DNA of 64,000 nucleotides from Dolomedes plantarius (taxonomy: Eukaryota > Arthropoda > Arachnida > Araneae > Dolomedidae), in the NCBI GenBank assembly GCA_907164885.2, contig OU015496.1, forward strand, positions 183,777,874 through 183,841,873, in the 5' to 3' direction. The position numbers were made by a program, and so were the translations under genes. Position 1 is the first letter of the stretch; every line of letters begins with the position of its first letter. Below are positions 18,219-48,200 of this stretch, in pieces. The notes beneath the pieces were generated by a model. It worked only from the letters and a program-made list of their open reading frames with translations, had not been told where the DNA came from and made no database searches.

Positions 18219-21200
18219 CTAGAATTATCGAAAATTATTTTTACCGAAGGAAAATAAATAATTTTAAATGATTTAAAAGGGGTTTAATCTCAAATGTTCA
18301 GATTTTGAAGCTAACTTTTAAAAGAGAATTCATCCCAAACTTGGAAGCAATATGTAAAGAAATATTTATGAAGTGTCTTTCATTCTGTTATCACTTAAAT
18401 GAAAACTAACTTGCGTTTCTCATATTGAAGAATCAAGTAAACTAACAGAATACTATGTTAGTGAATACTAATTGAATAGTAATAGTAACTGACATTTACA
18501 CAACTTACATTCGCAATTGAATTTAACAATTCTGTTAAAATCAAAATGAATGAATTTGTAAATGGTTACTTCAAGCAAATTTGTTTATTGAAAAATCTTT
18601 CATTATTGAATTTGACGGTAAGAAAAGTTTTCTTTTCTTATTAAACCACACCGATTAAATCATTACTGTTCGTGATTAAGAATGAATCCTATTGAACTGA
18701 AAATATTTACAACGATATATACGGTAGTGTAAATAACAAACATCAAAATGTGACATTAGATTTCATCGGTAAATGCAGAAGTTATTCAATATTTTCACAT
18801 AAAGCTTTTTAGAAACACAGAATGAACAGACACTAAATTGATCTATCTTCAGATGTTCATGGAGACAGATTTCATACTGTCCACCACTGTGTCCTTTATG
18901 GTATCAAAGATTAATTTGTTTTAAATTTTAATATCTTACTCAATGTTATTAATTTATTCATTTACTGTAAGGGTGGCTCAAATGAAAATGAGACTTTTCC
19001 TTTAACGGCAATTGTTAAATACCTAGAGATTTGCCTTTGCTCTTGTAGATAACGTTGTATGATTCGAAACAAAGTTGCTATCGTCGGAAAGTGCCAGTGT
19101 GGTGTTTGAACGTGTTTAAGCAAGGTGACTATGTACGGAAGTCACATGGATTCTTCCAAATATGCCCAGTGAGTGGTTATTCAATTTTTGACGGCAAGGG
19201 TATAAGTGAAGCCAAAATTTAAAGTCGTTTAAGTCATGAATATCTGTCACAGTATAAGTATACAGTGTTCAGATGGTTCAGGGAATTTCGTCAAGAACGT
19301 GTGAGCACGAGAAATGCCGAGATCTGCTCAATCTCATTTTCCCATCACCATAGAATCGATTGCTGACGTTGTCAAGATTTCTGAACACGAGAAATGACGA
19401 CATCTGCTCAGTCACATTTGTCCATCACCATGGTATCGATTGCTGTCGTGGACAAGATTTGGTGCGATGCTTCCGCTGGGGGGTTCTCGACCATCCCTCC
19501 TATAGCCCCAACCTGTCGGCTTGTGACTACCACATCTTAACTGAAAAAGGCTACCGATTTTCCAACGATGCAAAAGTCCGGGACGCCGTTCAAGAATGGT
19601 TCCGCAAGCAACCACGGATGTTCTTCGCTCAGGATGTCCAAAATCTAATAAATGCTGACGCATTTGCTTGTACCAACAGGGCGATATGTGTGGCGGATAT
19701 GTAGGACATGTATCACTGTTACTTTCTGCATGTTCCACTATTCCCACCAATAAACCATCACAGAAAAAAACAAAAAGTCTCACTTAGATTTGGACCACCC
19801 TTATATAATTCGGTCAGAGGATTCACATGGATATCAACTGAAGAACTTTATTTATCACACTTCTTAATGTAAACGGGGCTTTCCAGACACATATGTTATA
19901 TTTTAAATATTTTTTCAGACCCATTTGTCTGTGAAACAAAATACTTTATACTACTTTCACATCTGAATTTTACTCAAGAATTAGCAGTGTGTTTAAGAAT
20001 ACTTACTCGCACGGCTGATTGTAGCTATCTGCGAGCAAAGCGCATTTATTTGGAGGCTCTTTATCTGTAAAATTAAGATAAAAAAAATATGTAACATCAA
20101 GATGTGTATTTAAACAATAAAGTCTAAAAACAAATGCTTTTGCAGATATATTGCACCATGAAGAAATTTAATTCGTGCATATATCCTAAACAGAGGAATT
20201 TGTTGCTCTTGAAAGAACCTCTACTGTAGAAGAAACTTACCAATTAACAAAAAGGTATTGTAACAGGATAGACGTTGAAGAAATTATTCTATTAGAATAG
20301 GTGAGATCAACTTCCTAATTGCTATTATCGACAAGAAATGGAAGTTTTTCTTTTTCCATAAAACGGGGTGATTCACAGGTCCCGAATATTCTATAATAAC
20401 TATAGCTAGGATGAAACAATCTGAATATGAAAAAGTACGCTACATAGCTTGACGTATGTGTAATCGATTGCATTACATGCGTTGCTGGAAGTGATCTCTG
20501 TTCACCCATATATGGGCCGCAGAAAATCCCTTTGCCACTCACCAAACACCCATGATCAAAAAGTTGGTGAGTGATGAGCGATGTTTTAGTTGCGCATGAC
20601 AGGAACCATTTCCTTTGATACCACCGTGAACATCGATGTGTACCTGGAGATTTTTTTAGCAGTTCGTGTATCAAATGGATGATCGTGAGTTAACGGAAGG
20701 TTACTTCCATCAAGATGGAACACGTCGGTAAGGAGCATGGCTGAAATCGAATCCTTTTCCGGCAACAGGGTCATTTCAAAGGGGCTTTGGCCACCAAGGT
20801 TGCCTGATCTGAGACCACTAGACTTCATCCTTTGGGAGAAGTCTATCGAAACAAGCCCTGCACTGTGGAAGATTTGAGGGAAAACATCCAAAAGTGAAAT
20901 TGCTGGTATTCCCTCCGATATTCTTGCCGATGGGTTCAGGAAGTTGGAGTGCAGCGTCAAAATGTGTCTGGCAGAAAATAGAGATCCCTCCCAGCATCGC
21001 ATGTAATGCAATCGATTACACATACGTTAAGGTATGGACCGTAACTTTTTGGTTCAGATTGCCTCATCATAGTGAGAGTTATTATAGAACATTAGGGGCC
21101 TCTTTCGAGTGAATCACCCTTGTAGAGTATTGCATTTCAACCTCTCCGTTAACAAAAGAAATTCTTCTATCTCGGCCTGAGACCCATCAAAAGATTTCCG

Positions 21201-24200
21201 ACGACTTAGGTGGAAATATGCTGACGGCAATTTTCCTTTTGTTCATCCGATAGACTTGTTCGACAGAACCTTAGGGGACATAGGTCATATTTCTTGATTT
21301 AGTCATCGCCACCGGGTGACACCGCTGATGTTAGTTATAAATGACAGGAGACCCTAGGTGCTTTCTTTCATGAACTATCAATTGTTAAGCAGCATCCTGG
21401 AGGCGTCGCGTGCCTAATCAAAAGGACTCGTGCTGTAGCGTTGACGTTTTGTATTGGGGTGTATTTAAAAGCTTATTATTTTATATTTCTAATTAATAAA
21501 TTAATTAATGAAGGTAGGAATTACTCTTACTAATTAAGGTGGGTTTCAGCTAAATTTAAATACAACAATATTTGCCATTTGGCCGTTAGTGGTTAGACAT
21601 TTTAAGATGGATGGTAAAGTTGCGTTGTGTTTAGCAATAACCCATAAACATATAATAATTATAAATTACCCTAGGTTCATTACTGTCTGCATCACTGTGG
21701 TGATTAATGAGCCAAAAGAAAAATGAAATTAAATCTAATAAATTTACTTAACCTTGGAGAACACCTAGAAATAAAATTATCTCACCTAAAGGAAAAAGCT
21801 TCATATCTGCTGAAATAAAAATAAAACCTAAAGCTGAAAATCAGAAAATTTACTAAAAAGGCAAGGACCGACATGACACCACTTTACAAACTAACATAAC
21901 AATTTATTTAAGAATTTCCCTGACATTATAACAAACAAACTCATTAACTGCAGATCTTCTTAACATTATTCTGACAACCAAATTCAATTGAATAAATACA
22001 ATTTCGTTTAAATGAGTTCTACTCTCCATAATACAATTAATTATCAATAAAAACAATACAAATAAGTGAAGTGGCTGGCGAATCAAAAAAAAAACTTCTA
22101 AATGAAAAAGTGATGAGAAAAAAAAACAAAAGTAAAACTATAGAAAAATTCAGTAAACCAAAAAAAAAGGAAATTAAAACTATATTACCCAATTAAAATG
22201 CTGCAGCACAAATAAAAACTATTATTTTAAAAAATCATGAGGGGCACCCCAGGCCAGCGCCATTTCTATAGCGTGCCGGCCGCCACTAAAAATCCAGACA
22301 TCTCTCTCCATCGTGGGTTGCGAGTCCGCTCCCAGCCTCTTGGCCGGCCTCCCCCTCTCTGTCTCCAAATCTCCATTGTACGACCTTCTCACCCCTTTGT
22401 ATGGCTACTCGTGGGTGAAAATGAGTGCGTCTTCGCTCCTTGATTTTAACAGGGAAATTCGGACCAACAGAATTTGAGGGGCTTGAATTATAATTTGATA
22501 GGTAGTATAGTATTTTATTTTCAACTTTGATCTTGCATCAATTCAGGATTTATTTTCTTTTATTTTAAACTCTGGAACTAACTCGGCGTTTGGCGATCTC
22601 AGGCGTATCCATGCGCCTACCCCTCATCAAAACGGTGGTTTCGCTTATCTCTTGGCCAGCTGCAAAAAAGGGGTTGTTTCTTGAAATGGATACTTCTGTT
22701 AATCCCTTTATCCGGTGTAGTCCTGGGTATGTGCTGGGAAAATACTGTGAAAATGGAGGAGATCTCGTTACATTGCCTACCAGCCCAGCTTACACAAGGG
22801 TTTGGGCTCATAATACAAAATTTACTATTAATTGAAAAAACAAAAATAAAACACTCTAAAATTAATAATTAACTATGTTGAATGTATACCAGCTACCGAA
22901 AAAAACAATAAAAAAAAACAATATACCAGCGTACCAGTCACCTCACAATTATTTCAAAATAAGGCTTATTAATTTATCAATATTAACAATAAGGTATAAC
23001 CTGTGATGATCTATTTCAAACTTAATTCTTCTTAATGTCAAAACATTTAGAGAAACTTGCGCACCTTCTCCAAATGCGATGACATTAATCAAATCACTTA
23101 ATATCTGATCACCACAAGTATAACCCTTACATATATTTAGCAGAGGCTTAATAAATTTATTAAAACAAAGCACAATCGTTACTAAAATTTACTTACTTCT
23201 TACTTACTTTACCAATTTAATTATCTGAAAACCCGATATTAATATTAACTTTAATCACTTCCAAAACTATTAATTATCATCACAACAAATACCTCCTTTT
23301 CCGCGAGAAAAAAAAATTTGGCACAAATTTTTTTTTTAATAATAAAAAAAAACACAGATCACCGTGGAAAAATTTCACGAATTAAAAGAATTGACTAAAG
23401 TATAAAATTACATTACACAATGTGATATATTGTTCCCATTCGACCCGGGTCACATAACAAAACACATATACATGAGAGATTACTTATTAAACAAAAATAT
23501 AAACCATGGAATATCTAGCATAATACCCGAAAAAAATTTCATTACCACAATTGTATATAAAACAAGCAAAAATGAAACATTGAGCACCTAACATATATCT
23601 AAAACAATTCATTACCACAACTGTATGCTCAATTTACAATTAAACCATATACACTAAAAAAACTGCATAGTAAAATAATCATCCTCGGTTAAAACAATCA
23701 GTTCAAAAACATTACATCTTGTCCACAGTTTACTTCTATAATTTGAAATTGACAGTGCGACCATAGCATACAATCCGAAACAAATTTTAAAAAAAAAGTA
23801 TGCTTAACACAAATAAACAAAACCTCTTCGAACAAAACTCAATACAAAATTCTCTCTTACGAAATTCATTATCACTGTTCAAACAAAATTAACATGTTTA
23901 CTGTTCAACCTCAAAAAAATGTATATGAAACATGTGAGACAGGTGTAGAAAAATTACAACTTTAACCGTACATATAACATATAAAAATTTTAACCTCCCG
24001 TACACCCTAGTATACATTACAAAACCAGGTAATTGATAGAAATTTGAGACCTATCGTTAACTACACCACTATTTACTCCTACTAATCCAAATTCAATTCC
24101 AGCCTGCGAAGATAGACTCTTCGTCCCTCGCGGCAATGAAATTCTAATAAGCTTAGTAAAAATTAATGATTAAAATCTGAGGCCATGTCTAACGTTCATT

Positions 24201-27200
24201 AACCTCCTGTACACCTTAGTACACATTACAAAATTAAGTAAATGATAAAATTTTGAAACCAATATTTAACTACTCCACCATTTACTCCTACCAAACCAAA
24301 AGTAATTCCAGCCTGCGAAGAGAGACTCTTCGTCCCTCGCGGCAATGAAATTCTAATATGCTTAGTAAAATAATGCTTAACACAAGAAGCCCTGTCTAAC
24401 GTTTAATTGCATAAACCGAACTGAACAGACCAACGCAAGCATACCTACTAAAATAACATAACCAAACTTATTCAAAAAACCGTATGCCCTACTTAAATAA
24501 ACAAAAACCGGTCGAATCGAATCACAGTCGATCCCCAAAAGTCATGCTGATCCGTTCAAATCAGAATATGCACATGAAACATTGTAGACAAGAGCACCAA
24601 AAAAAATTTAACATAAACAAAATTTTCGGACGCTTTAGTATGCATTACAAAAGAAATTAAACAATATTAAATTAAGCTAAAACTCTGCAAAAAAACTAAA
24701 CTGGTATTAAATCCAACAAAACTCTGACATGAGAAACTGAACTTATTAGGTACTGAAAGACCACAACATTCAAAATTTCCCAGCCTGTGACATTGAAGTT
24801 GAATATTAACCCCCATTTTAATTAAACTTCTAAACAAACCTAACTGGTATTAAGTCCAAACACATACCCGACATAAGAAACTGAATTTATTAGGTACTGA
24901 AATGACCGCAGCATTCAAATTTCCCAGTCTGTGACATTGAAGTTTGAAACTTAAACCCAATTGTAACTAACTTTCGTGTGAAAAACAATATCATTAACTA
25001 TTATATGAAAAATATTTAATGTAATTTTCAATCTGTCCAAGAACCCAAACCAATTTTACTTCCTGTCTGACCATGACACCAGCTCTAAATGGCAAGAGGA
25101 AAGTAGAAAAACTTAGCACCTGGCAAGACAAAAAAAAAAACTCGTGATATGAAGCCCAAAATAACCCAAAAAATTATCTGACATGTAGAATTGCAATTAA
25201 AAATTTATCAATACTTAGTATGCAAATATACTATGGGAGACATTGTAAAACATGCACAATTTAGCACCTCAAATCAAATATTATACTTAAAACCACTAGC
25301 ATAGCAATAGAAAACGTTAGAACAACAAAATACCAATTAAAATAAACTCAAAATATCTATCAATGTTTAAAGATGTTAAAAAAAAATATTCAATATTCAA
25401 TATAAATGCAAAATATATAGGAATGTAAAAATACCTTTCAAATCAAAATGTATCCCTAAATGCACTAACAGAACAATACTCTTAAGTAAAACACCCCAAA
25501 AAAATTATATCGTTCAATAATTCAAAATGAAAAAAAAAATCAATATTCAAAATAAATGCACAAAATATAGGAATGTAAGAAAAATTTCAACTTAAAATCT
25601 ACATTGTTTAAAATATCAAAAATAATAATAACCATAACCACATAAAAATAATATGAACCAAAAAATCTGTGCCAAAATAAGATTAAGCCTCCACTATACC
25701 AAAATTTAATATGTCATGCCGTCTTACCGAAAGAAAGGATAATGGAAAAAAAAAATGGCTCATTTGCAAACAGTCTTCACGACTTGTACCATTTGAAGAA
25801 AAAAAAAATGGCACAGCGTGGGTAGGACACAGGCGCCATTTGTGGCGTTGACGTTTTGTATTGGGGTGTATTTAAAAGCTTATTATTTTATATTGCTAAT
25901 TAATAAATTAATTAATGAAGGTAGGAATTACTCTTACTAATTAAGATGGGTTTCAGCTAAATTTAAATACAACAATATTTGCCATTTGGCCGTTAGTGGT
26001 TAGACATTTTAAGATGGATGGTAAAGTTGCGTTGTGTTTAGCAATAACCCATAAACATATAATAATTATAAATTACCCTAGGTTCATTACTGTCTGCATC
26101 ACTGTGGTGATTAATGAGCCAAAAGAAAAATGAAATTAAATCTAATAAATTTACTTAACCTTGGAGAACACCTAGAAATAAAATTATCTCACCTAAAGGA
26201 AAAAGCTTCATATCTGCTGAAATAAAAATAAAACCTAAAGCTGAAAATCAGAAAATTTACTAAAAAGGCAAGGACCGACATGACACCACTTTACAAACTA
26301 ACATAACAATTTATTTAAGAATTTCCCTGACATTATAACAAACAAACTCATTAACTGCAGATCTTCTTAACATTATTCTGACAACCAAATTCAATTGAAT
26401 AAATACAATTTCGTTTAAATGAGTTCTACTCTCCATAATACAATTAATTATCAATAAAAACAATACAAATAAGTGAAGTGGCTGGCGAATCAAAAAAAAA
26501 ACTTCTAAATGAAAAAGTGATGAGAAAAAAAAAAACAAAAGTAAAACTATAGAAAAATTCAGTAAACCAAAAAAAAAGGAAATTAAAACTATATTACCCA
26601 ATTAAAATGCTGCAGCACAAATAAAAACTATTATTTTAAAAAATCATGAGGGGCACCCCAGGCCAGCGCCATTTCTATAGCGTGCCGGCCGCCACTAAAA
26701 ATCCAGACATCTCTCTCCATCGTGGGTTGCGAGTCCGCTCCCAGCCTCTTGGCCGGCCTCCCCCTCTCTGTCTCCAAATCTCTATTGTACGACCTTCTCA
26801 CCCCTTTGTATGGCTACTCGTGGGTGAAAATGAGTGCGTCTTCGCTCCTTGATTTTAACAGGGAAATTCGGACCAACAGAATTTGAGGGGCTTGAATTAT
26901 AATTTGATAGGTAGTATAGTATTTTATTTTCAACTTTGATCTTGCATCAATTCAGGATTTATTTTCTTTTATTTTAAACTCTGGAACTAACTCGGCGTTT
27001 GGCGATCTCAGGCGTATCCATGCGCCTACCCCTCATCAAAACGGTGGTTTCGCTTATCTCTTGGCCAGCTGCAAAAAAGGGGTTGTTTCTTGAAATGGAT
27101 ACTTCTGTTAATCCCTTTATCCGGTGTAGTCCTGGGTATGTGCTGGGAAAATACTGTGAAAATGGAGGAGATCTCGTTACATTGCCTACCAGCCCAGCTT

Positions 27201-30200
27201 ACACAAGGGTTTGGGTTCATAATACAAAATTTACTATTAATTGAAAAAACAAAAATAAAACACTCTAAAATTAATAATTAACTATGTTGAATGTATACCA
27301 GCTACCGAAAAAAACAATAAAAAAAAACAATATACCAGCGTACCAGTCACCTCACAATTATTTCAAAATAAGGCTTATTAATTTATCAATATTAACAATA
27401 AGGTATAACCTGTGATGATCTATTTCAAACTTAATTCTTCTTAATGTCAAAACATTTAGAGAAACTTGCGCACCTTCTCCAAATGCGATGACATTAATCA
27501 AATCAATTAATATCTGATCACCACAAGTATAACCCTTACATATATTTAGCAGAGGCTTAATAAATTTATTAAAACAAAGCACAATCGTTACTAAAATTTA
27601 CTTACTTCTTACCTACTTTACCAATTTAATTATCTGAAAACCCGATATTAATATTAACTTTAATCACTTCCAAAACTATTAATTATCATCACAACAGTGC
27701 CTTTCGCATTTTACCGAAGCGGCCCTTTGAGACTCTTTGAAGTGGCTTGGAGGACAAACTAAAAAGGCGGCCGTTTTAGACCCGGGGAAAATATTTCATT
27801 ATCGCCCCAGGAAACCCATTTCCGTTGCTCACTTGTTCTAGATCGTTCGACTTTCTGGAGAGTGATGCAATATCCGGTGGAGGTTCTTCTATAAAAAGAG
27901 AATGGACCCCTCAGTCGTGGCTTGCGTCTTTTAGTTCCTGACACGTAGCGGATCCAGTTTTAAGAGCAGCCGGGTTTGCCGCCCTTACCGGTTCAGAGTC
28001 CCTTGTGACTGTTTGCAGCGACGATCTAGTTCCTGCAGGAGTAAACATACTCCACTAATTTGTCGGAGACCAGTCTTCGTGGAAGGAGCCTTTGCTACCT
28101 TATTTTCCAGTGAGGAGTCCTTTCTCCTTAATTTAATATTTTCATCGCTACCGGGTGCGTGCAGTGATCACCGCCGTTGATATTATTGGGGAGCCCTTTC
28201 CCGTCAGGAGAAGTGCCGTTTCTTCATAATTGAAGCAGAGCCAGTTCTGCTAGCCTAGCGGACTTCTGTGTTCTTACTCCGCCCCACGCCGATTAAATCG
28301 AGTGTGATTACCTAAGTTACGAAGTTCATCTTACATCTGTGCAGTGTACATATCTCATCATCATCAATTTGATTAATAAATTGCATTTTTTTTGTTTATG
28401 AAATGAGTGATGTATACCTGGTGTGTTTAAATCATCTTCTGGTTGACACTACGAACCTCAGTTCGCTACAGAAGGTATATATTCATTCATAAATTTGGTG
28501 GCAGCGTTTTGACGAAAAAAAAGCGACAGTAAGAACATTTTGTTTTCCTTAGTGACGGTCGCGTGTGTTCAGAACTGTGACTGTGCGAAAGTGCTATTGC
28601 GGGTGTGTATCCTGTGAAGTAGTGTAGAGCGGCTGACGTTCTTGTGAAATCTGCTAAACTGCTGCAGTGTTAATTTCCTTAGTGACATTCGCGCGTGTTT
28701 CAGAACTGAGACTGTGTGAAAGTGCTATCGCGGGTGTGTGTATCCTGTGAATTAGAGTAGAACGTTTGACGTTCTTGTGCCATCTGATAAACTTGCTTCA
28801 GTGCCAACTAGATGCCAGTCTTCACATCAAATTGTGAGTACCATTCTGTTTCTCTTTTGTGCTGGTATCCAACAGTAGTTTAGTAAATAATATTTTGGTT
28901 GTTTTCTCAGAATTAGGAGAATTAAATTGTTGAATTTAATAACCGTAATTAATAGCTTGATCTGAACTTAAAAGGTGTTAAAAAGTTTTTTAATTTGAGG
29001 TAAAATAAGAACTAGTGTTATTGTGTAAAGTAGAATTGTTATTGAAATAGTAGTGTGTTAAATTAGTTCCCAGAAATTAAGGAATGTAACTGTGCTCAAA
29101 AAGAAATAGTGTAACTACATTGTGTTTAACTATTTTGCATTGTGTATTTTTGTGATATGTTAAAAGCAAAGTGATTTATCTTTTATGAACCTTAAAATAG
29201 TAACATCGCAAGCGGAATTTTAAAAGTAATTTAGTTCATTTTTGTTAATGCATTGCATGTGTACGTTAATTGATTGTGTTGTGTAGTTGCATTTTGTGTT
29301 CAGGTTTTAATGTAATTACTACCTCAGGGTTTATAATAGTGTGTATTATTCTGTGTAGTATTGTAATAGCTTTGTATTCTGTCAAACATGGGTTCTCTTG
29401 TTCGTGCAAAGAAAGAGGACTTAGTTAACCTCGCTATAGAAATGAGTTGTGAGGTACGTTTGGGAATGCTGAAGCTTGAGATGATCAAAAAAATTGAAAG
29501 TTCAGCAGATTACAATGTAAAATTGGCTGAAGGGTTGTTAGCTGAAATTATGGAGATCCGTATAGAAAACGAGCAACGAGAGCGGGAAGAACGGTTAGCC
29601 CGGCAAAAACGGGAAGATGAATTAGCTCAACAAGAACGGGAGGATAGGTTAGCTCAACAAGAGCGAGAGTTTGAGCTAGCCAAATTAAGACTGAGTAGGG
29701 AAGCCCCCCAAGAAAGCCCGTCTGTTAGTCCTCCGAGACCTGCGGGACACTCATTAAGGCACATAATGCTAAAATTCGACCCGGAAGAAACTGATATAAG
29801 CCTATGCCTTTGCCTTTTTGAACGGCAGGCACAGCATTTAGAAATACCGGAAGCTGAATGGTCAGGCAGTTTAATTAGCCTGTTACCATTATCAGTAGCG
29901 GTCATTGTGTTACGGGAAAAAGTCGAGGACACACAAAAATATTCCCACGTTAAGAGCGTGCTTCTCGAGCGATTCAGGCTCAGTCCTGAAGCTTTTCGTC
30001 AGAAGTTTGTTAGACACCAGCGTAAGCCAGGAACCCTATGGAAAGATTATCTTTTCGAAATAAAGACGTATTTCGAAGGTTGGATAGAGGGTCTCGGTGT
30101 TACAACTTTTGAGTCGTTAAAAGATCTCTTTCTGGTCGACCAATTAAAACGGAAAATGGGAAGTGAAATCCGGGAGCAAAATATAAGGGATTGGGAGAAT

Positions 30201-33200
30201 TACACGTCACCTGAAACCTTGGTCAAAGACGCGGATCAGTTTGAGCTTATCAGAAAAACAGGTAAGCCCCCCAACCAGCCGAAGAAATTCAAGGGACGCG
30301 CCCCCGACCAACGTAAAATGTTTGGGGCTGTAAAAACGGGAGAGAAAGTTGAAAACCCCCCCGAACAACACGAACCCGAACGGAATTTAGATAAGGTGAG
30401 CTCCCCTCGCCCAAAAGAAAACCGCCGTAAAGAATGGAACCATAAAGAGTTCGACAAAAGGCGCGTGACAGACATTAAGTGCTATTTCTGCCACGAGGTC
30501 GGCCATATTAAGCCCCAGTGTCCGTTATTAACAAAAAAAGAAGAGGTTAACTCCATAGGTGCCGATTTGGAAATCACAGATCCCTTAAAACCATATGTGA
30601 GTATAGGGACTGTGAACGGCCAGGTATGTGAGATACTTAGAGATACGGGTAGTACGATTGATTTGGTTTGTAAAAGATTTATTTCGCCCGACGACTATCT
30701 CGGCGAAACAGTCTGGCTCACTCAGCCGTTAGACACTCGTGCCATTAACGTGCCCCTAGCGCGCGTAATTCTGAACTCCCAGTATGGAGATATAACAACA
30801 AAGGCCTGTGTCATTAGCGACAGGTCAAATCAACAAAGATACATACTGGGAAATCAAACGGCAGCTCTTCTGAGACAGGGTCAACAAAACTCTAAGAGCA
30901 TGCAAATCAATGCAATAACGCGCTCGCGTTCCAAATGTCAAGAGAGCTGTACACAGACGCTTGAGTCAAACGATTCTCTTCGGGAGCGTTCGAACAATAG
31001 TCCCTCAGACGGGGAGTCAATCGTTTTGACACAACTGGAAAGGGAGGAACATGCGAATTTGTTAGTTTTACCCCCCCCCCCCTCGACCGCTAAGACCCAG
31101 CGTTGAGTCTATTAAATGTTTCCCCAGAGAAATTCGCAGACGCACAGCGGGAATGTGCAGAAGTGGCCGCATTGTTAAAAAGGGTCGAAGGCTCAGGTCA
31201 AACCGGCGAGAAGGGTTATGTGGGGATAAACGGGTTGCTGTGTAAACAACAGAGGGACCACTTTGGGGATACACGAAGTCTTTTAGTTATCCCACAGGTA
31301 TTCAGGGAAAAACTGTTGGCAGTATGCCATGAGTCAACAAATGCTCATTTAGGTGCGACGAAATTGAAACAGAGGCTAGCCAAATCGTTTTTCTGGCCCC
31401 GATGTTACCAAGAAATGGATTAATACGTGAGGTCGTGCGACGCATGTCAGAGCATAGGAAATGCTCAAGATACTAAGAGATTCCCCATGCGATTAACGCC
31501 TATATTTAGCGAGCCATTTGTCAAAATAAACATCGATGCTTGCGGACCTCTGCCCGAATATGAGAATGGAAATAAGTACCTAATCACCGCTATATGTTTA
31601 GCTTCAAAGTTCCCGGAAGCAATTCCCGTGAAAAACCTAAGGTCATTATCTGTCACGGATGCCTTATTGCAGGTATTCAGTAGAACCGGGTTCCCGAAAG
31701 AGGTGCAATGCGACAATGGCACGTCGTTTACGAGCGAGTTAACGTGCGAATTTTTTGAGAAATTCGGCATCAAGGTGACGCATAGTTCAGTGGGGCATCC
31801 ACAAAGCAACCCTGTAGAGAGATTCCACCGAACACTTAAGAGACTGTTAAAAGTCCTGTGTTTGGAAAACGGGGAGAGTTGGGAACGTCATTTACCAGCC
31901 TCGCTCCTCGCGATTCGGACTATAACGCATAATAGTACGGATTCTCACCGGCCGAACTGTTGTATGGAAAAAACCTACGAACACCCGAAGTTTTATTGTA
32001 CGAAGGTTGGATGGGAGGTTGTGAGGAAGAGAGACCCGTGACAGAGCACGTCCTTACCCTAGTGAATAGATTAAAAAGAGCGCGACAGTTAGCTGCTCAG
32101 AAAATGGGTGAAGAACAATCTAAGCGTAAGGAAGCGTATGATAAGAGCGCAGTGGGGGATATACATAAATTTGAATACATGAATTCAAATTTATGTATAT
32201 CCCCCACAGATAATAAAAGGCATTAAAGGCCATTACCGCAGTTAAAAGGCATTTCGAGGTTGGAGATTTAGTTCTGATTTTCTCTTTATCTCGACCTAGC
32301 AAAATGGCGCCGAAGTGGATAAGCCCAGGGAAAATTGAAGCTCGCATATCCGAGACGAATTATCGAGTGCAAACTCCCGGACCTAGACAGAAATCCAGCA
32401 TTTACCATATTAATATGCTGAAGCCCTATATCAGGCGTCCCGAAACTATAAATTGGGTTTATGAAGGTAAAGTCGAAATTGGTACTGAGGATGATTTCGC
32501 AATCCACGTTTTTGAAACCGGTGCTACCGATTTCGATTACGAGGAGATTGTGCGCGAGAGCGAACTTGACGCTCGTCTAAATCTCACTCAAAAAAGGGAA
32601 CTAAAGAAATTATTGTGTAGCCATGTAAATATTTTTTCTAATAACCCAGGAAAAACCGAGAAAGTTACGCATGACATAGAGCTGATCTCGGATAAGGTCG
32701 TTAGGTCTAGACCATACAAAACGTCACACCGACAGAACGAAATCTTGAAGTTGGAGATTGACAAAATGTTAAAATTAGGAGTGATAGAAGTAGGTGAGTC
32801 TGATTATACCTCGCCTATCATTTTGGTAGAAACCGATGGTCGTGAGCCGAGACCCTGTATTGATTATCGTAGGTTGAACGAAATAATTCGCACCGAATAT
32901 TACCCCCTCCCCAACATAGAGGAAAGGGTTGAACAGGTTGCAGGATCTGATTTCATAACAATACTCAATCTTGCAAAGGGGTATTGGCAAATCCCCTTGA
33001 CAGAAAGGGCCCAACGCATTGCGGCTTTTGTCACCTCATTCGGGACATTCAGGCCTTTGCGGATGCCTTTCGGGCTTAAAAACGCACCTTTCTTTTTCAG
33101 TAAGCTCATGGCTGACGTCCTAAATGGGTGTGAGGAGTATGCCGTTCCATATATCGACGACATCGCGATATTTTCTAAGACCTGGGACGAGCATCTGAAG

Positions 33201-36200
33201 CATTTAGATATCGTGTTAAGTCGTGTAGCGCAAGCGCAGCTCACAATCAAATCATCGAAATGTCGGTTCGCCCAAAACCATGTAAAATACTTGGGGCACA
33301 TGGTCGGCGGAGGTTATCGAAATCCCGCCGAATTAAAGGTAAAATGCATTAGGGAATTTCCCCGGACAAAGACGAGTAACCAGAGACAAAGACGAGTATC
33401 CGGGCATTTCTGTGTCTCACTGGGTATTACGCGCACTATATTCCAAATTATTCTATGATAGCGGCCCCCTTAACCGATGCGTTAAAAGGACGGGAGAAAC
33501 GCGCGGCGGTTGTGTGGGACGAAGCTTGCAAAGGAGCGTTCACCACTTTGAAAGACGCTCTTATAAAAACACCTGTGCTACGAGCTCCTGATTTTTCTGT
33601 TCCATTTATTGTCCAAACGGACGCATCCGATCTGGGAGCCGGGGTAGTGTTGGCCCAACAAATAGGTGATAAGGAACATCCTATCCTGTACCTGAAAAGG
33701 AAGTTCTCTGAGCCCGAAAGGAAATACAGCACCACAGAAAAAGAGTGCTTGGCGATCATATTCGCGTTAAAAATCTTCACTACTATCTGGACGGAAGCGA
33801 ATTCAAAATCGTGACCGACCATAATCCATTGGTATGGCTCAAGAAGAATGCCAGTTCAAATGGCCGTCTTTTTCGGTGGCTACTTATGTTGCAGCAATTT
33901 TGTTTTCGGGTAGAACACAAGCCGGGAAGACAGAATACAAACGCTGACGCTTTAAGCAGATACATTCCTTAAACGTCCGCGAATTACCTAGATTTGTAAA
34001 TGTAGTAACCTAGAGAATTAATTGTTAGTACCATGAATTTATTTGTGTTTGTTTTTAGTAATCCAGTTAGTGCATGTGTACGTACTTGTTAGAATTGTGT
34101 ATTTTTTTCTTGTGTAGTAGAAAAAAAAACTGTAGGAACTGGTACATTAGATAGCAGAATTGGGAACCACCCACACGAAACGTTGGTTTTCAATATGCAA
34201 CCACATTGAAAACTTTAACGGCAGGGGGGTTAAAAATTTATGAATGAATATATACCTTCTGTAGCGAACTGAGGTTCGTAGTGTCAACCAGAAGATGATT
34301 TAAACACACCAGGTATACATCACTCATTTCATAAACAAAACAAATGCAATTTATTAATCAAATTGATGATGATGAGATATGTACACTGCACAGATGTAAG
34401 ATGAACTTCGTAACTTAGGTAATCACACTCGATTTAATCGGCGTGGGGCGGAGTAAGAACACAGAAGTCCGCTAGGCTAGCAGAACTGGCTCTGCTTCAA
34501 TGATGAAGAAACGGCACTTCTCCTGACGGGAAAGGGCTCCCAATAATATCAACGGCGGTGATCACTGCACGCACCCGGTAGCGATGAAAATATTAAATTA
34601 AGGAGAAAGGACTCCTCACTGGAAAATAAGGTAGCAAAGGCTCCTTCCACGAAGACTGGTCTCCGACAAATTAGTGGAGTATGTTTACTCCTGCAAGAAC
34701 TATATCGTCGCTGCAAACAGTCACAAGGGACTCTGAACCGGTAAGGGCGGCAAACCCGGCTGCTCTTAAAACTGGATCCGCAACGTGTCAGGAACTAAAA
34801 GACGCAAGCCACGACTGAGGGGTCCATTCTCTTTTTATAGAAGAACCTCCACCGGATATTGCAACACTCTCCAGAAAGTCGAACGATCTAGAACAAGTGA
34901 GCAACGGAAATGGGTTTCCTGGGGCGATAATGAAATATTTTCCCCGGGTCTAAAACGGCCGCCTTTTTAGTTTGTCCTCCAAGCCACTTCAAAGAGTCTC
35001 AAAGGGCCGCTTCGGTAAAATGCGAAAGGCACGAGTCCTTTTGTTTAGGCACGCGACGCCTCCAGGATGCTGCTTAACAATTGATAGTTCATGAAAGAAA
35101 GCACCTGGGGTCTCCTGTCATTTATAACTAACATCAGCGGTGTCACCCGGTGGCGATGACTAAATCAAGAAATATGACCTATGTCCCCTAAGGTTCTGTG
35201 GAACAAGTCTATCGGATGAACAAAAGGAAAATTGCCGTCAGCATATTGCCACCTAAGTCGTCGGAAATCTTTTGATGGGTCTCAGGCCGAGATAGAAGAA
35301 TTTCTTTTGTTAACGGAGAGGTTGAAATGCAATACTCTACACCCTATTATACACCCCTGGAATGGTAGGTTGAAATACGTAAGTAATGCTAATAAAATAC
35401 ATTCTACACATATTTTTCGCTAATCCTCTGCACTCCCCTTCACACCTCCTGGGGGGGGGGGCGATACCCTCAGGATGAGCACCACTAATCTACAGTCATT
35501 CGTCAGTCCGCCGAACGACTGTATTGTTTGTCTTTCGGATATATTGCAATATGGAGCCCTCATTAATATGGAAGCATTTCAAACGAGGAACAAGAACTGC
35601 CGTATATTTTAAGGTAACTTTGGATAAATATTTGTGAAAGCCAAAATTAAGAGAAACTATTTTGTTTGATGGCTATTTTAAAGCAGGCAACAAAAGCCTT
35701 GTAAATTGTTACGTGTTCGGATAACTATCAAATCGTTTGTTTTATGAATAGTTTTTTTTATGAATTGGATCCGCAATGCAGGCTTTAAGAGATTCTGGCT
35801 AAGCAGGTTTTAAAAGGTAATGACATTATTATTTGGAGATTCACATAAGTCCATGACCACAGTTTTAAAAGAACTTCTTCAGAAACATCTTATGGCTTCT
35901 TTTATACATATTTTTGGCTTATTTAAATTTGTAATTGAAGTGTGTGTGTCCAGTTAACAATTTGAAATTTCTTTTAAGTACAAGTAATTTCAGTGCCGCC
36001 CATTGGCAAAGTGGTTAGGGCATCAGCCTACTACCCAAGCGGGTTCGAATTCTTCATATGGCATGGATGTAATATTGGGTTAAAAGTCAACCTTCCGTCT
36101 GCAAGGAAGGAGCCCCATCTTGAAAGAGACAATGATGAAAAAAACCTGCTGTCTCTCGTCTGTAAATAAGTATTTATTGTGTATGTGTATTCTCTTCTGT

Positions 36201-39200: not shown

Positions 39201-42200
39201 GGAAAGTCAACAAAAACTTAAGTTTTTTTTAATGTAATTCATAGGTAGCTCTGGTTACTTGAAGAGGAAGTTACTTGTAGAGCTATAAAGAATAATCTTC
39301 TTTCTTAATTGTAATATGAAGATTATATCTTTTGCTTTAAATCTGAAAATTTTCAAAGAAATGTTTTTAATTATTCATTAAATCTAATTTATTTATTATA
39401 AACTGTTAAATTAAATTTTACTTTTGTTTAAAAAATTTTGCTTTTCCTCTTTTTTTATAGTACTGAATATAAAGTTATGTACTGAAGTTAAGAACTGTCA
39501 TACAAATTATGGTATCTGGGAAAAACCACATACTTTATAAAATGTCGCCGTTTAAATGCAGTGAAGTCGCATAAACAAATTAGCATTAAATTCCATTTCT
39601 ATTGACTAGTAAAACTTAACTTAATCTCGAAAATCTGATTTAAATGATTTCTATATAAAATCTGAATGTATTAATTTTTGTTACTGACTTTTTTCTACTT
39701 TACTCCATTCTGTATGTGTTTTTCTTGAGACATTTCTTCGCTCAGTAATAAACATATCAATAATGTCGACGAACGCGTTCTGTTTATCGGACATTCTTAA
39801 AATACCACTTATTTCCGTATTACATACCAGAAATTCTTTCTTCATTGTGTAAGGACAGTCCTTTCAAATGGGTCTCTTGAAAAAAAGTTACTCAAAAATC
39901 CTCGTGTTAGAGTCTTACGAAAAGTAAATTATTTTCTCAGTTTAGTATCAAAACAATTGGGACTCCTCGTTGTTCAGGTAAATTGGTTAAAATCCGCAAA
40001 TTGGACGAGGTGCGAAAAATCGCTCTAATCAACTAATCACAACATTATAATTCAAGGTAGAGAGAAATGCCTATGGAGTTAACGATGGCAAATCGAAACT
40101 AAAGCAACTATTTCAAATGTTCTCATATTTATGTTTAATTCCGTCATTTCTGCATATCTGAATTTTTAAGTAGATATATTGACTGATTATTACTAGAGTA
40201 ATTATTTGTTTTTCTTGGGTTACACAATTATTTGGATTTTCTTCTCATATCATCTCTCCTTAGTAATAACGTAAAGCATGTTGACATTTTATGAAATCCT
40301 GTATAAATAACTGAATCTTGAAGTTATTTTAATTTTAGGATGGTGCTGATGGACCATTTGTAGAGTAAAACATTTTTTAAGGTTTCGTTACACTTCGCCC
40401 GCCTCATTTACCAGATTAGTTGTCTTTAAACTAGTGTTTTACCACGTCTAATTTGTTTACATTTTGAATGAATTCAGGAATTAAAGTTTCTAACATTTGA
40501 CCGCTAGTTCTAATTACAAGTAAAACTTACACGTCTGTATTCGTATGCCCATCTTTAAGCGCAAAAAAAATTTACTTTTTTTTTCTTCTTCATAGAATGT
40601 AGCAAACACTTTTAATCACCAACTAATGAGATCATCCGCAACAATGTTTAGCGGTTTTGAGAGGTGACACGAACTTCCATGACTGAACAGTTACCCTACT
40701 CCCATGAGGATTGCTTTGCAATGCAGCATACGAAAGTGCGTGTGCTTTAGGATTAGTAAAACAAGAAACCTGCGATGCGGGTTTTTTCAAGCGAAGATTT
40801 TAGTCTTCTGCGCTACACCCGTTGTTTGTAGATTGTTTTGGGAAAAATTCTTTAAAGTCATACTGGAAGTGAGAGTCCACGTTAATAAAAAATCCGCCCG
40901 CTGTGAGCAGCAACTATTGGAGGCCATGTGATACGGGTTCCATGCATTTAACGTTCAGCTGCTATAACAGATAGGACTAACGTGATGAAACTGTAACCAG
41001 AAATCAAAAATTTTACCAGCTTTATACGGATCTCGTAAGCTCTTCCACCCATAAAAGTTGAACCTTCTATAAATGGAGAAGGTAGGGAATACGGGGAATG
41101 TACCGCCATCTGTACGGAGACGTCACATGGAGGGTTGTACCGTGGTCCCCTGTATCCATTGGCATCCACTGATCCTTCGGGTCGGCCGGTATAGTTAGCG
41201 AAAATATGAAATTTCATGGCTGGAGAGAAAAGAACGCGTAATTGCAATTCAATTTACAAACACTAAAACATATCTAACTCTTCAAAACATAAGCGAACCG
41301 TTGAAGAAGACTTCTTAACTTTTCAAGATTGTAGTTAAAATGAGGTCTAATTTTGAGAAGTTCTGTTCACCTTTGGAAAGTACAGCATTTGATTCAAATA
41401 TCTCGAGAGTTAATTCAGAAATGCAGATGGATTTGTAATGAATTGAAACGAATCATCTTTATTGAAAATGAAAATTGGAACGTTCTGAGATTTTTGAATA
41501 GTGTAATGAATTTGTCAAGAAACGAAAGAGAAGACCATAATATTGTCACGTAGACAGATCGAGTGAGTAACACAGAAAGCACAATTTAGATAAACGAAAA
41601 CTTTTATTCACAGCAAGCGAGCTAACATGCACAAAGCTGGAACCTAACTGACTTCCCATCAGCTTGAGGGAAGCCTTTTTATACACTAAAGAACTTTTTA
41701 GAATTATTTAAATTAAGATGATTAACATCTTTGGTATTTTCCCGAAGCTTCGAGAAAGCGAACAGAAATTAACTTAAAAAGAATGTGGAGGTGCCGGTAT
41801 ATAATGATTTAACTTAGAAATATTTACAGCTAGATATTTACAGAAGGTTATTGTTTTCCCGAAACACCTACCACATATCCCCACTCTCGTGGGCTGTTTA
41901 CAATGTATCTGTAAATACAGTAGACTTGTTAAATAATGCAATACAGTTTATTGATGAACCCTGTTCACAATCACTGGAATATAATAAAACCATTGAAAAC
42001 TAGCAATATTGCAATAACTACTATTGCGCTTACAATTAAAAACATCAATAAATAATATAACTACCGATACTAATAACACAATAAAATTAATATTACGACT
42101 GGCAGCACAAGAGTCCTGTGAGGCGATCTTAGGGTACAGCTTATCAATGGTGAGACACACACTGGTACACGGGAACCCTCTTTAGTCGGTGAAGTTGAAG

Positions 42201-45200
42201 AATCCGGTGCTACAGCAATTGACGATAACTACCAGAAATATTCTGCAGCTTGAGCACACGAAGAGCTCGACGGGAACACTATGTTGTGAGCGTGCGGCCA
42301 GGCGGATCACTGCTCTCTCTCCCTTGAGTCGAGTGGAGCCTGCTTATATGTCGCTCTGGGGAAGCTCGCACATGCGCAGGCGATCACGCTAGGAATTTGC
42401 ATGAAAATCTACATGATGATTTCATCTTCTTCGCGTGACCGCCACAAGAAGATGAAATACTTTCGACAGTCCGTCTCGGGGCTCGAACCGACGACCTTCT
42501 GAATTGGAGCCCAGTTCTTTATCCGTTCGGCCACGCCGTCACTCGAGAACGGTTGTAAATATGACATTATCCCACCTTTAAAAGAACAACGCCTCGCTGT
42601 TAGATGACTTCTTATTTTTTTTTCTGGTACGCGTGACTGGACCCGAATATTCCTGGTTCTGATCAGCATCACCAAGCTTATTATCAGCATTAACTGGTTC
42701 CTCCTAAAGAGCAGTTGGATCTTCCTGTAAGGCTATTTCTTGCACATCCGGATCATAGTAGGGTTTCATGCGTAACACATGCACAACATCTCGTGTTTTT
42801 CGTCTTTTTGACTTAGGTTCAAAATCTTGAACTTCATAGGTAACGTCGGATAGCTAACTTAATATTTGATATGGACCGAAACACCTTTTGAGGAGCTTTT
42901 TTGATAGGCCTACTTTACGAACGGGGGCAAAAATCCATACGAGGGTTCCAGACAAATATTTTACTATTCTGTGCTTTGCATCATAGATCCGAAAATCTTT
43001 TTCTTGAGCTTCCAGTGTCCGTACTTGCGCTAGCTGCCTTGATTCTTCTGCTTGGGTGATTACTCGATCGAGGCTACCCGACACTGTTCCATCAGGGCTA
43101 TAGGGTAATATAGTATCCAGTGCTGTTTCGGCTTCTCTACCATACACTAAGCAGAAAGGTGCGAATCCAGTGGTATTTTGTCGAGCGGTATTGTAAGCAA
43201 ACGTGACAAATGGTAGTATTGTGTCCCAGTTTTTCTGTTCTATGTCCACATACATAGACAACATATCGGCTAAAGTTATGTTAAGTCGCTCAGTCAGACA
43301 ATTTTCTTGAGGATGGTATGAGGTCGTCAGTCGGTGGACAACATTGCACGTTCTGTTAAGTTCGGAAATTAGCTTCGACTGGAAGCCTTGTCCTCTATCG
43401 GTGATGATAGTCCGTGGCGCCCCATGCTTCAAAAGGATTTCTTCGACAGTGAATTTTGCAACTTCGGGTGCTTCAGCAGTTGGCAGAGCTTTTGTTATGG
43501 CGCAACGAGTCAAATAATCGGTATATACGATGATTCATTTGTTACCAGTCTTAGATTTTGGGAATCTTCCTAATAAATCCATACCCACCCGCGGGAAAGG
43601 TACTTCTGCGGGAGGTATAGGAATTAGACGACCAGGCGGTTTTTCAGGAACGGATTTTCTTCTTTGACATTCTTTACAATGCATTACATAGCGGCGTACG
43701 CTTCAATAAAGCCTAGGCCAATAAGATCTCTTACGTATTATATCATAGGTCTTCACAAATCCCAAGTGGTCGGCAGTTGATTCGTCATGCAAATGTCGAA
43801 GAATATCCAGATCGCAAATGCTTAGGAATAACTGGTAGCTATATCTTCCCCGGAGGATCAAAATTTTTCTTGCACAGGATTCCCTCGATTATCTCGAGGT
43901 CTACTTTGCCAGACTTGTGGGGCTTCGTGGAAGACTCGGACTCAGAAGTATTCAGAAGTATTCAGAAAGCACAGACTCCTTACGTTGCTCAAGTGCAAAA
44001 TCAATGCCGGGGCCAATAGCACTGATATCTACTGAAGTGGCATGGTCATCAATGGGGTTTCTGGAAAGGCTATCGGCATCATTGTGTCTTTTTCCACTTT
44101 TGTATACCATAAAAATATCGTATTCTTGGAGTCTTAGAGCCCATCCTGCAGATTTCCCGAAAGGATCTTTTAAATTAGCTAACCAACACAACGCGTGATG
44201 GTCTGTCACAATTGTGAATGATTTTCCAAACAAATAAGGGCGGAACTTCATGATGGCCCATACGACTGCAAGGCACTCTCTTTCGGTTGTTGAATAATTT
44301 CGTTCGGCTTTTGACAGTGTTCTAGATACATAGGCTATGACTTTTTCCTCGCTCTGCTGCTGTTGGACCAACACAGCACCAATGCCATATCCACTAGCGT
44401 CAGTGTGTAATTCAGTGGGTGCTGTTTCATCAAATAAACCTAGTATTGGTTCAGAAATTAGTGCTGACTTTAAGTCATTGAAAGCTTCTTCCTGTGTAGA
44501 GGTCCACATAAATTTGGAATCACCTTTTAGTAAAATCTGGAGAGGCTGGGCTCGATAGCAGAAGCCTTTGATAAAGCGTCTGTAGTAGGAGCACAGTCCG
44601 GGAAAGCTTCTGACGTCATGGACGCTCTTTGGGGCAGGAAAATCTTGAACTGCTCTTATTTTATCTGGATCGGGTTTTAAGCCTTCACGGGATACTAGAT
44701 GGTCTAGGATCTTGATTTCCCTTGCATCAAACAGACATTTCTTAGGATTAAGAATTAGGCCAGCTTCCTGAATCCATTTAAGGACACAGGTGAGCCTTTT
44801 AAGGTGGTCCGAAAAAGTTTGAGAGAATACAACAATATCGTCTAAATAACACAAGCACATTTGCCACTTAAGGTGACGCAGTAAATTGTCCATTTTTCTA
44901 GCAAAAGTTGCTGGAGCATTACAAAGTCCAAACGGCATGACCTTGAACTCATATAAGCCTTCACTGGTGACAAATGCCGTTTTTTTTCGATCTGCTTCGT
45001 CTACCTCTATCTGCCAATATACCGAATAGAGATCCATGGAAGAGAAAAACTTCGCTCCTTTCAAGAAATCCAACGTGTCGTCGATTCGCGGTAAGGGATA
45101 AACGTCTATCTTTGTGACCTTGTTTAAACGTCGATAGTCTACACAAAAGCGCCAGCGACCATCTTTCTTACGCACGAGAACGACAGGAGAGGACCACGGG

Positions 45201-48200
45201 CTGTCAGATGGCTGAATCACACTCTTTCGTAGCATCTTTTCGATTTCGTCATGGATTATACGGCGTTCGGCAGGTGATATTCTGTAGGGTCTCTGGCTAA
45301 TAGGAGGGTGATCTGCGGTATTAATTTTGTGTTTGACATGAATTTGGCGTCGATCAACTTCAGAGTTTTCACTGAAAGTAACTGAAAACATCCTTAAAAG
45401 TTCTAATAGACTACTCTGCTCATCACCAAGATTCGGCGCTATCATCTTGCTGTAATCCACTAACCTTGTACTTTCTTTCGCGATATCTTCGGAGGCTATC
45501 TGAGATAGGGCACTGATGCAGGTAGGATTAATCGACTCGGCATTGCCTATACACATACCTTTCAGAATGCGTCGGTCTTTATTTAGTGAATTAGCGATCC
45601 ATAATTCACCCTCTTTATTTGAGATGTTGATGATAGAAGATGGCATGACAACTTCCTGACTCATGAACATACACTTATTACCTTCTACGATAACATCAAA
45701 ATCCTGATCGGTTACGGAGGGAGTGGATACTTGTATCTTTGCCGTAGAGTGTGCAGGGATCAAACAATCTTCTACAGCGTATACGCCCCATTTCTTTTGA
45801 GGCTGTTCTTCAGGGAGTATCTTATCAAATATGAACTTTCTCTGTCCACAGTCTATAATCAGGTCAGGACACAGGTCCCTACCGGGCTTACATAATTACC
45901 ATCGGCTACCTTGAGAACCAAGTTCTGTAACGTCCTAAACATAGTTTATTTCAGGTGACGCCGATATCTCTCCGAGATTACCGAAAAAGAAGCTCCAGAA
46001 TCCACGAGTGCTCGTATAGGTTGATCGTGAATGATAACGTCAAGAAAATTTTTCTTGATAGTAGCGACGGGAGGATTTTGAGGGCGAGCGACCTCACCTC
46101 CAAGGAAGGTCGCATGGCCTAGTTTTGATTATCTCGGCTGCCGGGCGACTGACTGGATCTTCGATATGGAGATGGCGATCTATAACGACGGGTCGGCGAT
46201 CGTCCTCACATGGGACTTGGTGATGGGGTTCTTCCTGCTGCTCGGCGGGTTTCTTCGGCGTCATGGTTGTAGCTGGAATAGGAGGGAGCATCAGGTCTAT
46301 AGTATCTGCGAGTAGCGTCGAGTAGGGATTTTCGGTCACCGCAGTAGCGCACGAAATGTCCTGGACGACCACAATGGAAGCAGACCGGACGATTATCGGT
46401 GGTACGCCACAGGTCTGTTTTCCTGTAAGATTGTTCTGGTACAGCTTTTGGTTTTGTATACGTTGACTGGATGCGGCGGTTATGGTCCTGGTGGCTGGGA
46501 TGGTATGGTATGGCAGCTGGGGTGGTCCTTTCAAAGCTTTCACCAGATAGGGGAGCTAAATTTTTTTCTACCTCCCCTCTCACAATGGCTTCAATAGCTT
46601 GCGGACCGGCCTGTGGCTCTTCTATTTGAGGTGCAATGTATCGTTGAATTTCTTCACGGAAGATTTTATGAATTAAGGATATCAAACTTTTTTTCTTCGA
46701 CGACGGTTGCGATTGGGACGACATTAGGCAGACGAGCGAACCTCTGACGCCCAATTCTCTTTTGCTGCATTTCCTCGATGTACTGACACCATTTAATGAA
46801 ATCAGCTGTTGTTTTTATTTCCTTTGTTAGTAATGACTGGTACATATCTTCAGCTATTCCTTTCAGCAGATGGGACGGTTTGTCTTCCTCCGTCATGTTC
46901 GGGTCTACTTGATTACGGAGTCCCAACACATCTTGAATATAAAATTGTGTTTTTTCGCCAGCCCTCTGAGCTCTACATTTTAACTGGTCCTTTGATCGTC
47001 GTATGTACAGCTGAGTATCACCAAAAGTTTTTTTCAGTTCTGCCTCAAAGACATTCCACGAGATAAAAATGTCCTCATTATTTTCAAACCATATCTTGGC
47101 AGTCCCATCTAGGAAAAAGTAGATGTTGGCAAGAGATAGAGTATCATCCCATTGTTTAAACTTTGACAGTCTCAGATATTCTTTTAACCATTTAGTTGGA
47201 TCTTGTCCGGGATCGCCTTTAAAGATTGTTGGCTTTCTAGGCTCCTTTATTAGTGCTGAGGTAAGCAGGACAGTTGGTGGCTTGGATTCTGTGTCTTCGG
47301 GCATTTTTCTTGGCCGTTTCCCTGAATCTTTTACGTAAAGTCCATATTCAGGAAGGAGATTAAAAGTCTACGACTTTGTCGAATTTCTTTCGTTTCCAGG
47401 TTGAATAGATTACCCGGCACCTCCACCAGTATGTCACGTAGACAGATCGAGTGATTAACACAGAAAGCACAATTTAGATAAACGAGACAGTAAGCGAGCT
47501 AACATGCACCCAGCTGGAACCAAACTGACTTCCTATCAGCTTGAGGGAAGCCTTTTTATACACTAAAGAACTTTCTAGAATTATTGAAATTAAGATGATT
47601 GACATATTTGGTACATTCCCGAAGCTTCGAGAAAGCGAACATAAATTAACTTAAAAAGAGCATGAAATACTTTCGACAGTCCGTCTCGGGGCTAGAATCG
47701 ACAACCTTCTGAATTGGAGCCCAGTTCATTAGCCGTTCCCCCACGCCGTTACTCGAGAAAGGTTGCAAATATGACAATATTCACATGCCAGGATATTTTA
47801 GTGAATCATCTCCCAAATGTAGGGATGGCAGATCAACTCACCCGAATCTAATGAAATGCACGGAAATTTTCCCACAATTCTTTGCATTTCAATTGTTGCA
47901 ATAGGAAGATAAAAGCAAATAAATCATGTTAATAAAAACATAAAGAAGGATAAGAGGTAAATGGAGACGAAAGTGTAAGAGCTAAGGGTTACTTACTTAT
48001 GAAAAAATAAAGGAAAAACCAATAAATGAATAAACAAACACTATAAATTAAAGCGTTTAAAAAAATAAGTTAAAAAGTGATAAGAAGCACAAGTAAAAAA
48101 TTGCGTAAAGGAGTTCTTCTTGTTGTTTATTATGCCCCCTGCCCTGAACACATTCCAAAATGGGTGGAGCTTAAAGCAAAAATATACATGTCCAGCGTAC

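Follow-up and report, generated by a model that had tools for sequence, protein, structure and literature searches.

A Gypsy retrotransposon copy with inverted terminal repeats in the genome of the spider Dolomedes plantarius

Inverted-repeat systems and the locus in D. plantarius

DIRS elements have inverted outer ends, rely on a tyrosine recombinase and leave no target duplication. A triticale paper reportedly speaks of 'LTRs in opposite orientation', LTR standing for long terminal repeat. The element described here, at positions 21121–35341 of a 64,000-nucleotide stretch of the Dolomedes plantarius assembly GCA_907164885.2 (contig OU015496.1, positions 183,777,874 to 183,841,873 of the forward strand; hereafter the window), is a Gypsy retrotransposon copy that likewise has inverted outer ends, but it carries a DDE integrase and is flanked by a 4-bp repeat. 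The Pfam matches of the three element open reading frames (ORFs) scanned include an rve integrase and no tyrosine recombinase.

The Ginger1 and Ginger2 DNA transposons are described as having TGTNR ends, terminal inverted repeats (TIRs), a 4-bp target duplication and a Gypsy-like integrase, and Bao and colleagues, in the passage on their origin, suggest that the Ginger TIRs could derive from a pair of LTRs in opposite orientation, the second LTR having inserted nearby (PMC2836005). The D. plantarius copy has TIRs with TGTNR ends (TGTAGAG and CTCTACA), but its flanking repeat is CCCT, whereas Ginger1 has a CCGG or CCGT duplication, and it carries reverse transcriptase (RT) and RNase H, whereas Ginger transposons lack RT. 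With these differences, and with gag retained, it is no Ginger element. In addition, its repeats measure 1.1 kb, a single such copy was found, and one insertion is its likeliest reading, in contrast to the two neighbouring LTRs of the proposed Ginger origin. The passage on Gypsy-25 of the locust states a classic structure with an inverted LTR pair (PMC8786324), and the likeness to the present copy is one of textual statement.

Gmr1-like elements are Gypsy elements in which the integrase precedes RT, and they are known from cod, Ciona, crustaceans and an annelid (PMC3587641, PMC8220671). The D. plantarius copy has the same Gypsy-type RT, RNase H and integrase in the same integrase-first order, and the likeness is one of domains and their order; an inverted right LTR is unmentioned in the relevant passages of PMC3587641 and PMC8220671. 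Spider Gypsy proteins have the same order as well, a comparison made at the protein level.

Borders of the copy and LTR orientation across the family

The inverted terminal repeats of the copy are genuine. As an earlier note made from the window sequence had claimed, the left arm (21121–21433 and 27701–28496) is matched by the reverse complement of the right arm (34234–35341); the match blocks are 505, 313 and 308 nt long with 98–99% complementarity, and the full arm alignment of 1109 columns contains 10 substitutions and one 1-nt gap. An inverted match of 1.1 kb at 99% is far above chance expectation. The outer ends read TGTAGAG on the left and CTCTACA on the right and are flanked by CCCT on both sides (21117–21120 and 35342–35345), again as noted earlier, and these two repeats have the length of the 4-bp target duplications of the family. 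The probability that two random 4-mers from the window agree by coincidence is 0.006. A 0.7-kb element with inverted ends of about 125 bp that are 83% alike (20377–21101) stops beside the insertion site, and the CCC of the left flank may be the terminus of this element.

The left repeat is a normally oriented 5' LTR, as the earlier note had it. Both TATA and AATAAA motifs are found in the LTR, which runs on the plus strand from the U3 (unique 3' region) start TGTAGAG at 21121 to 21433, as given by the arm alignment, and from 27701 to 28470, where it ends with CGCTACA, the mature LTR end judged against the native copies of the family in the source genome. It is interrupted at 21434–27696 on the plus strand by a nested LTR element of 6,263 bp with its own 4-bp duplication (GTGC at 21430–21433 and 27697–27700). 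The 1.85-kb direct LTRs of this nested element (21434–23287 and 25841–27696) differ by 7 substitutions in 1854. It contains no listed ORF of at least 150 aa and is probably non-autonomous. The left LTR is followed by a 26-nt leader, GAAGG..AAATTT (28471–28496, plus strand), with the spacing seen in native LTRs, and the last T of the leader at 28496 doubles as the first base of the primer-binding site TGGTGGCAGCG (28496–28506, plus strand). The primer-like site reported earlier is complementary to the 3' ends of tRNA-Leu genes of the source genome plus CCA. The CCA of tRNAs is added post-transcriptionally. The primer-site pattern has 70 matches in the source genome, and ARAGORN calls a tRNA-Leu at the match in 5 of the 6 loci examined.

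The right repeat is the reverse complement of the left one, as claimed, but it is not a plain LTR beginning exactly at the polypurine tract (PPT). Comparison with native copies shows that it consists of the LTR plus 26 nt of 5' leader, with an extra A after the PPT. The PPT region GGCAGGGGGGTTA (34220–34232, plus strand) ends at the native PPT/U3 border, which reads GGGGGGTTA followed by TGTAGAG in all seven native loci showing this internal 3' border. In the aberrant copy GGGGGGTTA is followed by A at 34233 and then by AAATTTATG, which is the reversed leader up to the primer-site border (34234–34259, minus strand), and then by the LTR in reverse orientation, U3 (CTCTACA) facing outward (34260–35341, minus strand, as aligned with the left arm and with native copies). 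The number of extra nucleotides at the join depends on where synthesis of the plus-strand strong-stop DNA stopped: two A if it ended at 28495, one A if one tRNA base was copied.

In the source-genome assembly (2.78 Gb in 390 contigs), 40 of the 1,265 candidates from the LTR search were scored, and 29 other LTR loci (L011–L039) were compared with the arms. The 26-nt spacer and the primer site follow 16 of the 29, and the distance from the LTR end to GGTGGCAG is 26 nt in all 16 of these native LTRs (L011–L029), corresponding to 28471–28496 of the window. The primer site is GCGGTGGGAT with an 18-nt match to tRNA-Leu in two of the 16 copies (L011 and L016), GCGTTTTGAC with an 11-nt match in 13, and different again in L012. 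In the other 13, host DNA begins directly where the LTR stops; a PPT precedes 6 of them, and 7 are solo LTRs. Since host-bounded LTRs end at the LTR end, about 25 nt must come off the U5 (unique 5' region) end of the complementary DNA (cDNA) before it integrates, a length that seems large for trimming by integrase.

LTR pairs lying no more than 36 kb apart on one contig number 8 among the 40 scored of the 1,265 candidates, and all 8 are on the same strand. Both LTRs were compared in 7 of these pairs, and in the 6 with both outer flanks in view the LTRs are direct and bounded by 4-bp duplications (6/6); GTGT, GAAT, AACT and ACAT are informative, and the two others sit in AT runs. One locus (L022/L023, C10:109.03 Mb) is a tandem with a shared middle LTR, L023, which has the PPT upstream and the primer site downstream, and the two LTRs compared are identical. 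Junction positions at C2:54.19 Mb resemble those of this tandem.

Genome-wide junction patterns agree with the pairs. The normal PPT/3'-LTR junction has 334 matches with at most one mismatch and its control none, whereas the inverted junction, with up to three mismatches allowed, has a single match in 2.78 Gb, which is this locus. With exact gapped patterns in the source genome, the PPT has a reversed LTR end no more than 30 nt away at one place, and no reversed 5' LTR is found within 30 nt of exact GGTGGCAG. The leader is followed by G, the beginning of the primer site, at 264 places and by another base at three, namely this locus, L043 and L044; the latter two are primer-site variants and were rejected as further aberrant leader junctions. 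On contigs C1–C4, 83 5' junctions are listed, and 79 of them are followed 4.0–7.3 kb downstream by a direct 3' junction of the same sense. For three, no 3' junction is listed up to a distance of 15 kb, and for one the 3' junction lies only 1.1 kb upstream, the position expected of the middle LTR of a tandem. The pattern for tail-to-tail strong-stop dimers matched a single place, L041, which is a palindrome without an LTR match. At short spacing it matched nowhere, and there the reversed control pattern has 3 matches per strand. At the sensitivity of these patterns, which need exact or near-exact ends so that older or diverged copies, inverted ones included, would escape them, the inverted junction is unique to this locus. 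The tabulation of orientation and target duplication that the earlier note had called for thus gives direct LTRs in the other copies, and inversion is not the normal state of the lineage.

Origin of the inverted arm

The structure was probably generated by an error of reverse transcription or of cDNA joining before integration, which yielded a cDNA with two U3 ends that was inserted with a 4-bp duplication as a private aberrant copy of a high-copy and in other respects ordinary Gypsy family. Since the internal region ends at the start of plus-strand synthesis and the inverted block spans plus-strand strong-stop DNA from start to stop, each inner border coincides with a point at which reverse transcription starts or stops. 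The joined unit would be plus-strand strong-stop DNA, composed of U3, the repeated region (R), U5 and the 26-nt leader, with the PPT/U3 border at one end and the tRNA-Leu primer border at the other. While reverse transcription was under way or soon after it, the primer-side end of this unit would have been joined, reversed, to the internal PPT/U3 border with one or two extra A:T pairs. This may have occurred by an end-to-end template jump of RT or by end-joining of accumulated strong-stop DNA, and the one or two extra pairs are compatible with either route. A review, in its passage on this intermediate, describes plus-strand strong-stop DNA of Ty3 as made repeatedly and building up in the particles as a dead-end product. 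The product of the joining would be a linear cDNA bearing U3 (TGTAGAG) at both ends, and the integrase may have taken both U3 ends and inserted the cDNA with a CCCT duplication according to the 4-bp rule of the family. Rearrangement of the cDNA before integration had been one of the two options offered in the earlier note, and four observations support it: the junction at base level, the presence of the leader on the inverted arm, the duplication of 4 bp and the mutations of the arms.

When the arms are compared with the 29 other LTRs, 10 of their 11 differences are private to one arm, 6 to the left and 4 to the right (three substitutions and the gap), and the remaining one, at position 640, is polymorphic in other copies. 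No allele is common to both arms yet absent from the 29 other LTRs. Since copying of one arm late after insertion would leave shared mutations, the count of 0 shared against 10 private alleles suggests that the arms arose close to insertion; the sequences indicate that they were near-identical at birth. A simple Poisson model places the duplication within the first 38% of the age of the insertion (95%). Of 14 sites that are polymorphic in other LTRs, one distinguishes the two arms; native pairs differ at 0–1 of them and unrelated pairs at a mean of 5.3. Descent of both arms from one cDNA is therefore favoured by these comparisons, not proven.

Several points weigh against this reconstruction. 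The locus is known from the assembly sequence alone. Among unrelated LTR pairs, 50 of 399 also differ at 0–1 of the 14 sites. The left arm has 10 differences in total to L011, to L031 and to the right arm alike, and the right arm is nearer to L031 (8) and to L011, L024 and L025 (9 each) than to the left arm (10). The agreement of the two CCCT 4-mers retains its small chance of being a coincidence. Finally, integration of two U3 ends by the integrase of the family is a candidate step only.

A change in the chromosome after a normal insertion, in which host template switching or gene conversion would have replaced the 3' LTR by an inverted 5' LTR with its leader, is unlikely, even though CCCT would then come down from the normal insertion and the CTACA/CTCTACA that the LTR ends have in common might have helped at the outer border. 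Such a replacement would have had to hit the PPT/U3 and primer borders by chance, and the absence of alleles shared by the arms would confine it to the early part of the age of the insertion given by the Poisson model. Its plainest form, a flip of the 3' LTR in place, would need breakpoints at both LTR borders, as the earlier note rightly remarked, and it is disfavoured further by the leader, which is missing from all 6 native 3' LTRs bounded by host DNA, so that the inverted block is not merely a flipped 3' LTR.

An assembly or read artefact is improbable. The region is rich in repeats and the evidence is an assembled sequence, but the base-level junction was found at no other place in the assembly, so that it did not come from joining two overlapping sequences present in it, the two arms carry different private mutations, and CCCT stands at both outer flanks.

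Clusters of neighbouring insertions are common in principle, and a truncated element might by chance have come to lie next to an independently inserted LTR or element in reverse orientation. This is very improbable, because a reversed solo LTR needs a duplication of its own, whereas the inner side reads AAAA (or CTTC at the mature end) and differs from CCCT, and because it offers no explanation for a leader that reaches the primer border; an independent reversed solo LTR was rejected for want of its own duplication.

The other option of the earlier note, a lineage whose usual terminal repeats are inverted and whose replication cycle differs, can appeal to the precise ends and the flanking CCCT at this locus but is contradicted for the source genome by the junction patterns with near-exact ends (334 direct against one inverted junction, direct 3' junctions downstream of 79 of 83 5' junctions on C1–C4, no reversed 5' LTR near exact GGTGGCAG) and by the six direct native pairs, and it is extremely improbable.

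Coding content and significance of the copy

The gag-protease frame (29370–31106, plus strand) is open over 578 aa and was assigned by homology to gag-protease-integrase proteins, with a zinc knuckle and a DTG motif recognized by eye; its 572-aa ATG form matches no Pfam family at E 0.001. It is followed on the plus strand by the integrase (rve; 31094–32226), which contains one stop and a frameshift, and by a frame with the integrase C-terminal domain and RT with a YIDD motif (32217–33458); rve, RVT_1 and the integrase C-terminal domain were identified by Pfam. RNase H (33380–33972, plus strand) was located in two frames by tblastn with P0163. The pol region is damaged by one stop and several frameshifts. 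A near-perfect 56-bp palindrome lies between integrase parts of the element at 32152–32207. The earlier note had assigned a DD35E integrase. A DDE integrase is present, but 34 residues, not 35, separate the second D from E. Among the 46 relatives whose motif could be read, the spacing is 34 in 45 and 33 in one.

The domain order is gag-protease, integrase, RT and RNase H, with the integrase preceding RT as in Gmr1-like elements. The integrase precedes RT in all 51 two-domain proteins among 231 fetched, a count that, having been obtained with queries of this lineage, is no sample of Gypsy at large, and in all 6 long proteins scanned against Pfam. The ten best listed matches of the integrase-C/RT frame are 56–60% identical, and the named matches among those listed come from spiders (Trichonephila, Araneus, Argiope and Oedothorax) except for one archaeal genome bin. 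The protein concerned, P0182, belongs to this Gypsy lineage and is filed under a Nitrososphaeraceae archaeon, a label that probably reflects eukaryotic contamination.

RT, RNase H and an rve integrase together with gag and protease, the latter two by homology only, and a tRNA primer site with a PPT are those of Ty3/Gypsy elements. Direct LTRs are found in the other copies of the family and not in this one. Since the other copies are direct, the family is Gypsy and the copy at 21121–35341 is an aberrant member of it.

A second Gypsy element of the window (41544–47780, minus strand) has RT followed by integrase and direct terminal repeats. The genome_contigs search gave 8 loci, of which L001–L006 carry both domains with RT ahead of integrase, while integrase alone was matched in L007 and L008. 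The viral_contigs patterns matched 3, 2 and 27 stretches, with no relative among them, and the LTR-end match L009 there shares a 19-base exact stretch with the LTR and otherwise shorter matches at chance level.

No claim is made that this is the first published description of such an inverted-LTR copy. The family is normal and the copy private and aberrant; it is informative on reverse transcription and integration, and no new kind of element. A wider reading is improbable as a whole: that a single slip of RT makes an integrase-competent element with long TIRs, that two U3 ends suffice for concerted integration in vivo, and that the integrase of the family could in principle excise and move such a copy like a DNA transposon, which would open a one-step Ginger-like route. 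The aberrant copy shows how an LTR element could in one step come to resemble a different transposon class. Read as one insertion, it also offers a concrete case of the geometry of inverted LTRs invoked by Bao and colleagues in their passage on the origin of Ginger. If the locus has been read correctly, the copy preserves a normally traceless replication intermediate, the untrimmed primer-side end of the cDNA, the integrase of the family can pair two U3 ends, and the normal U5 end must shed about 25 nt before integration.

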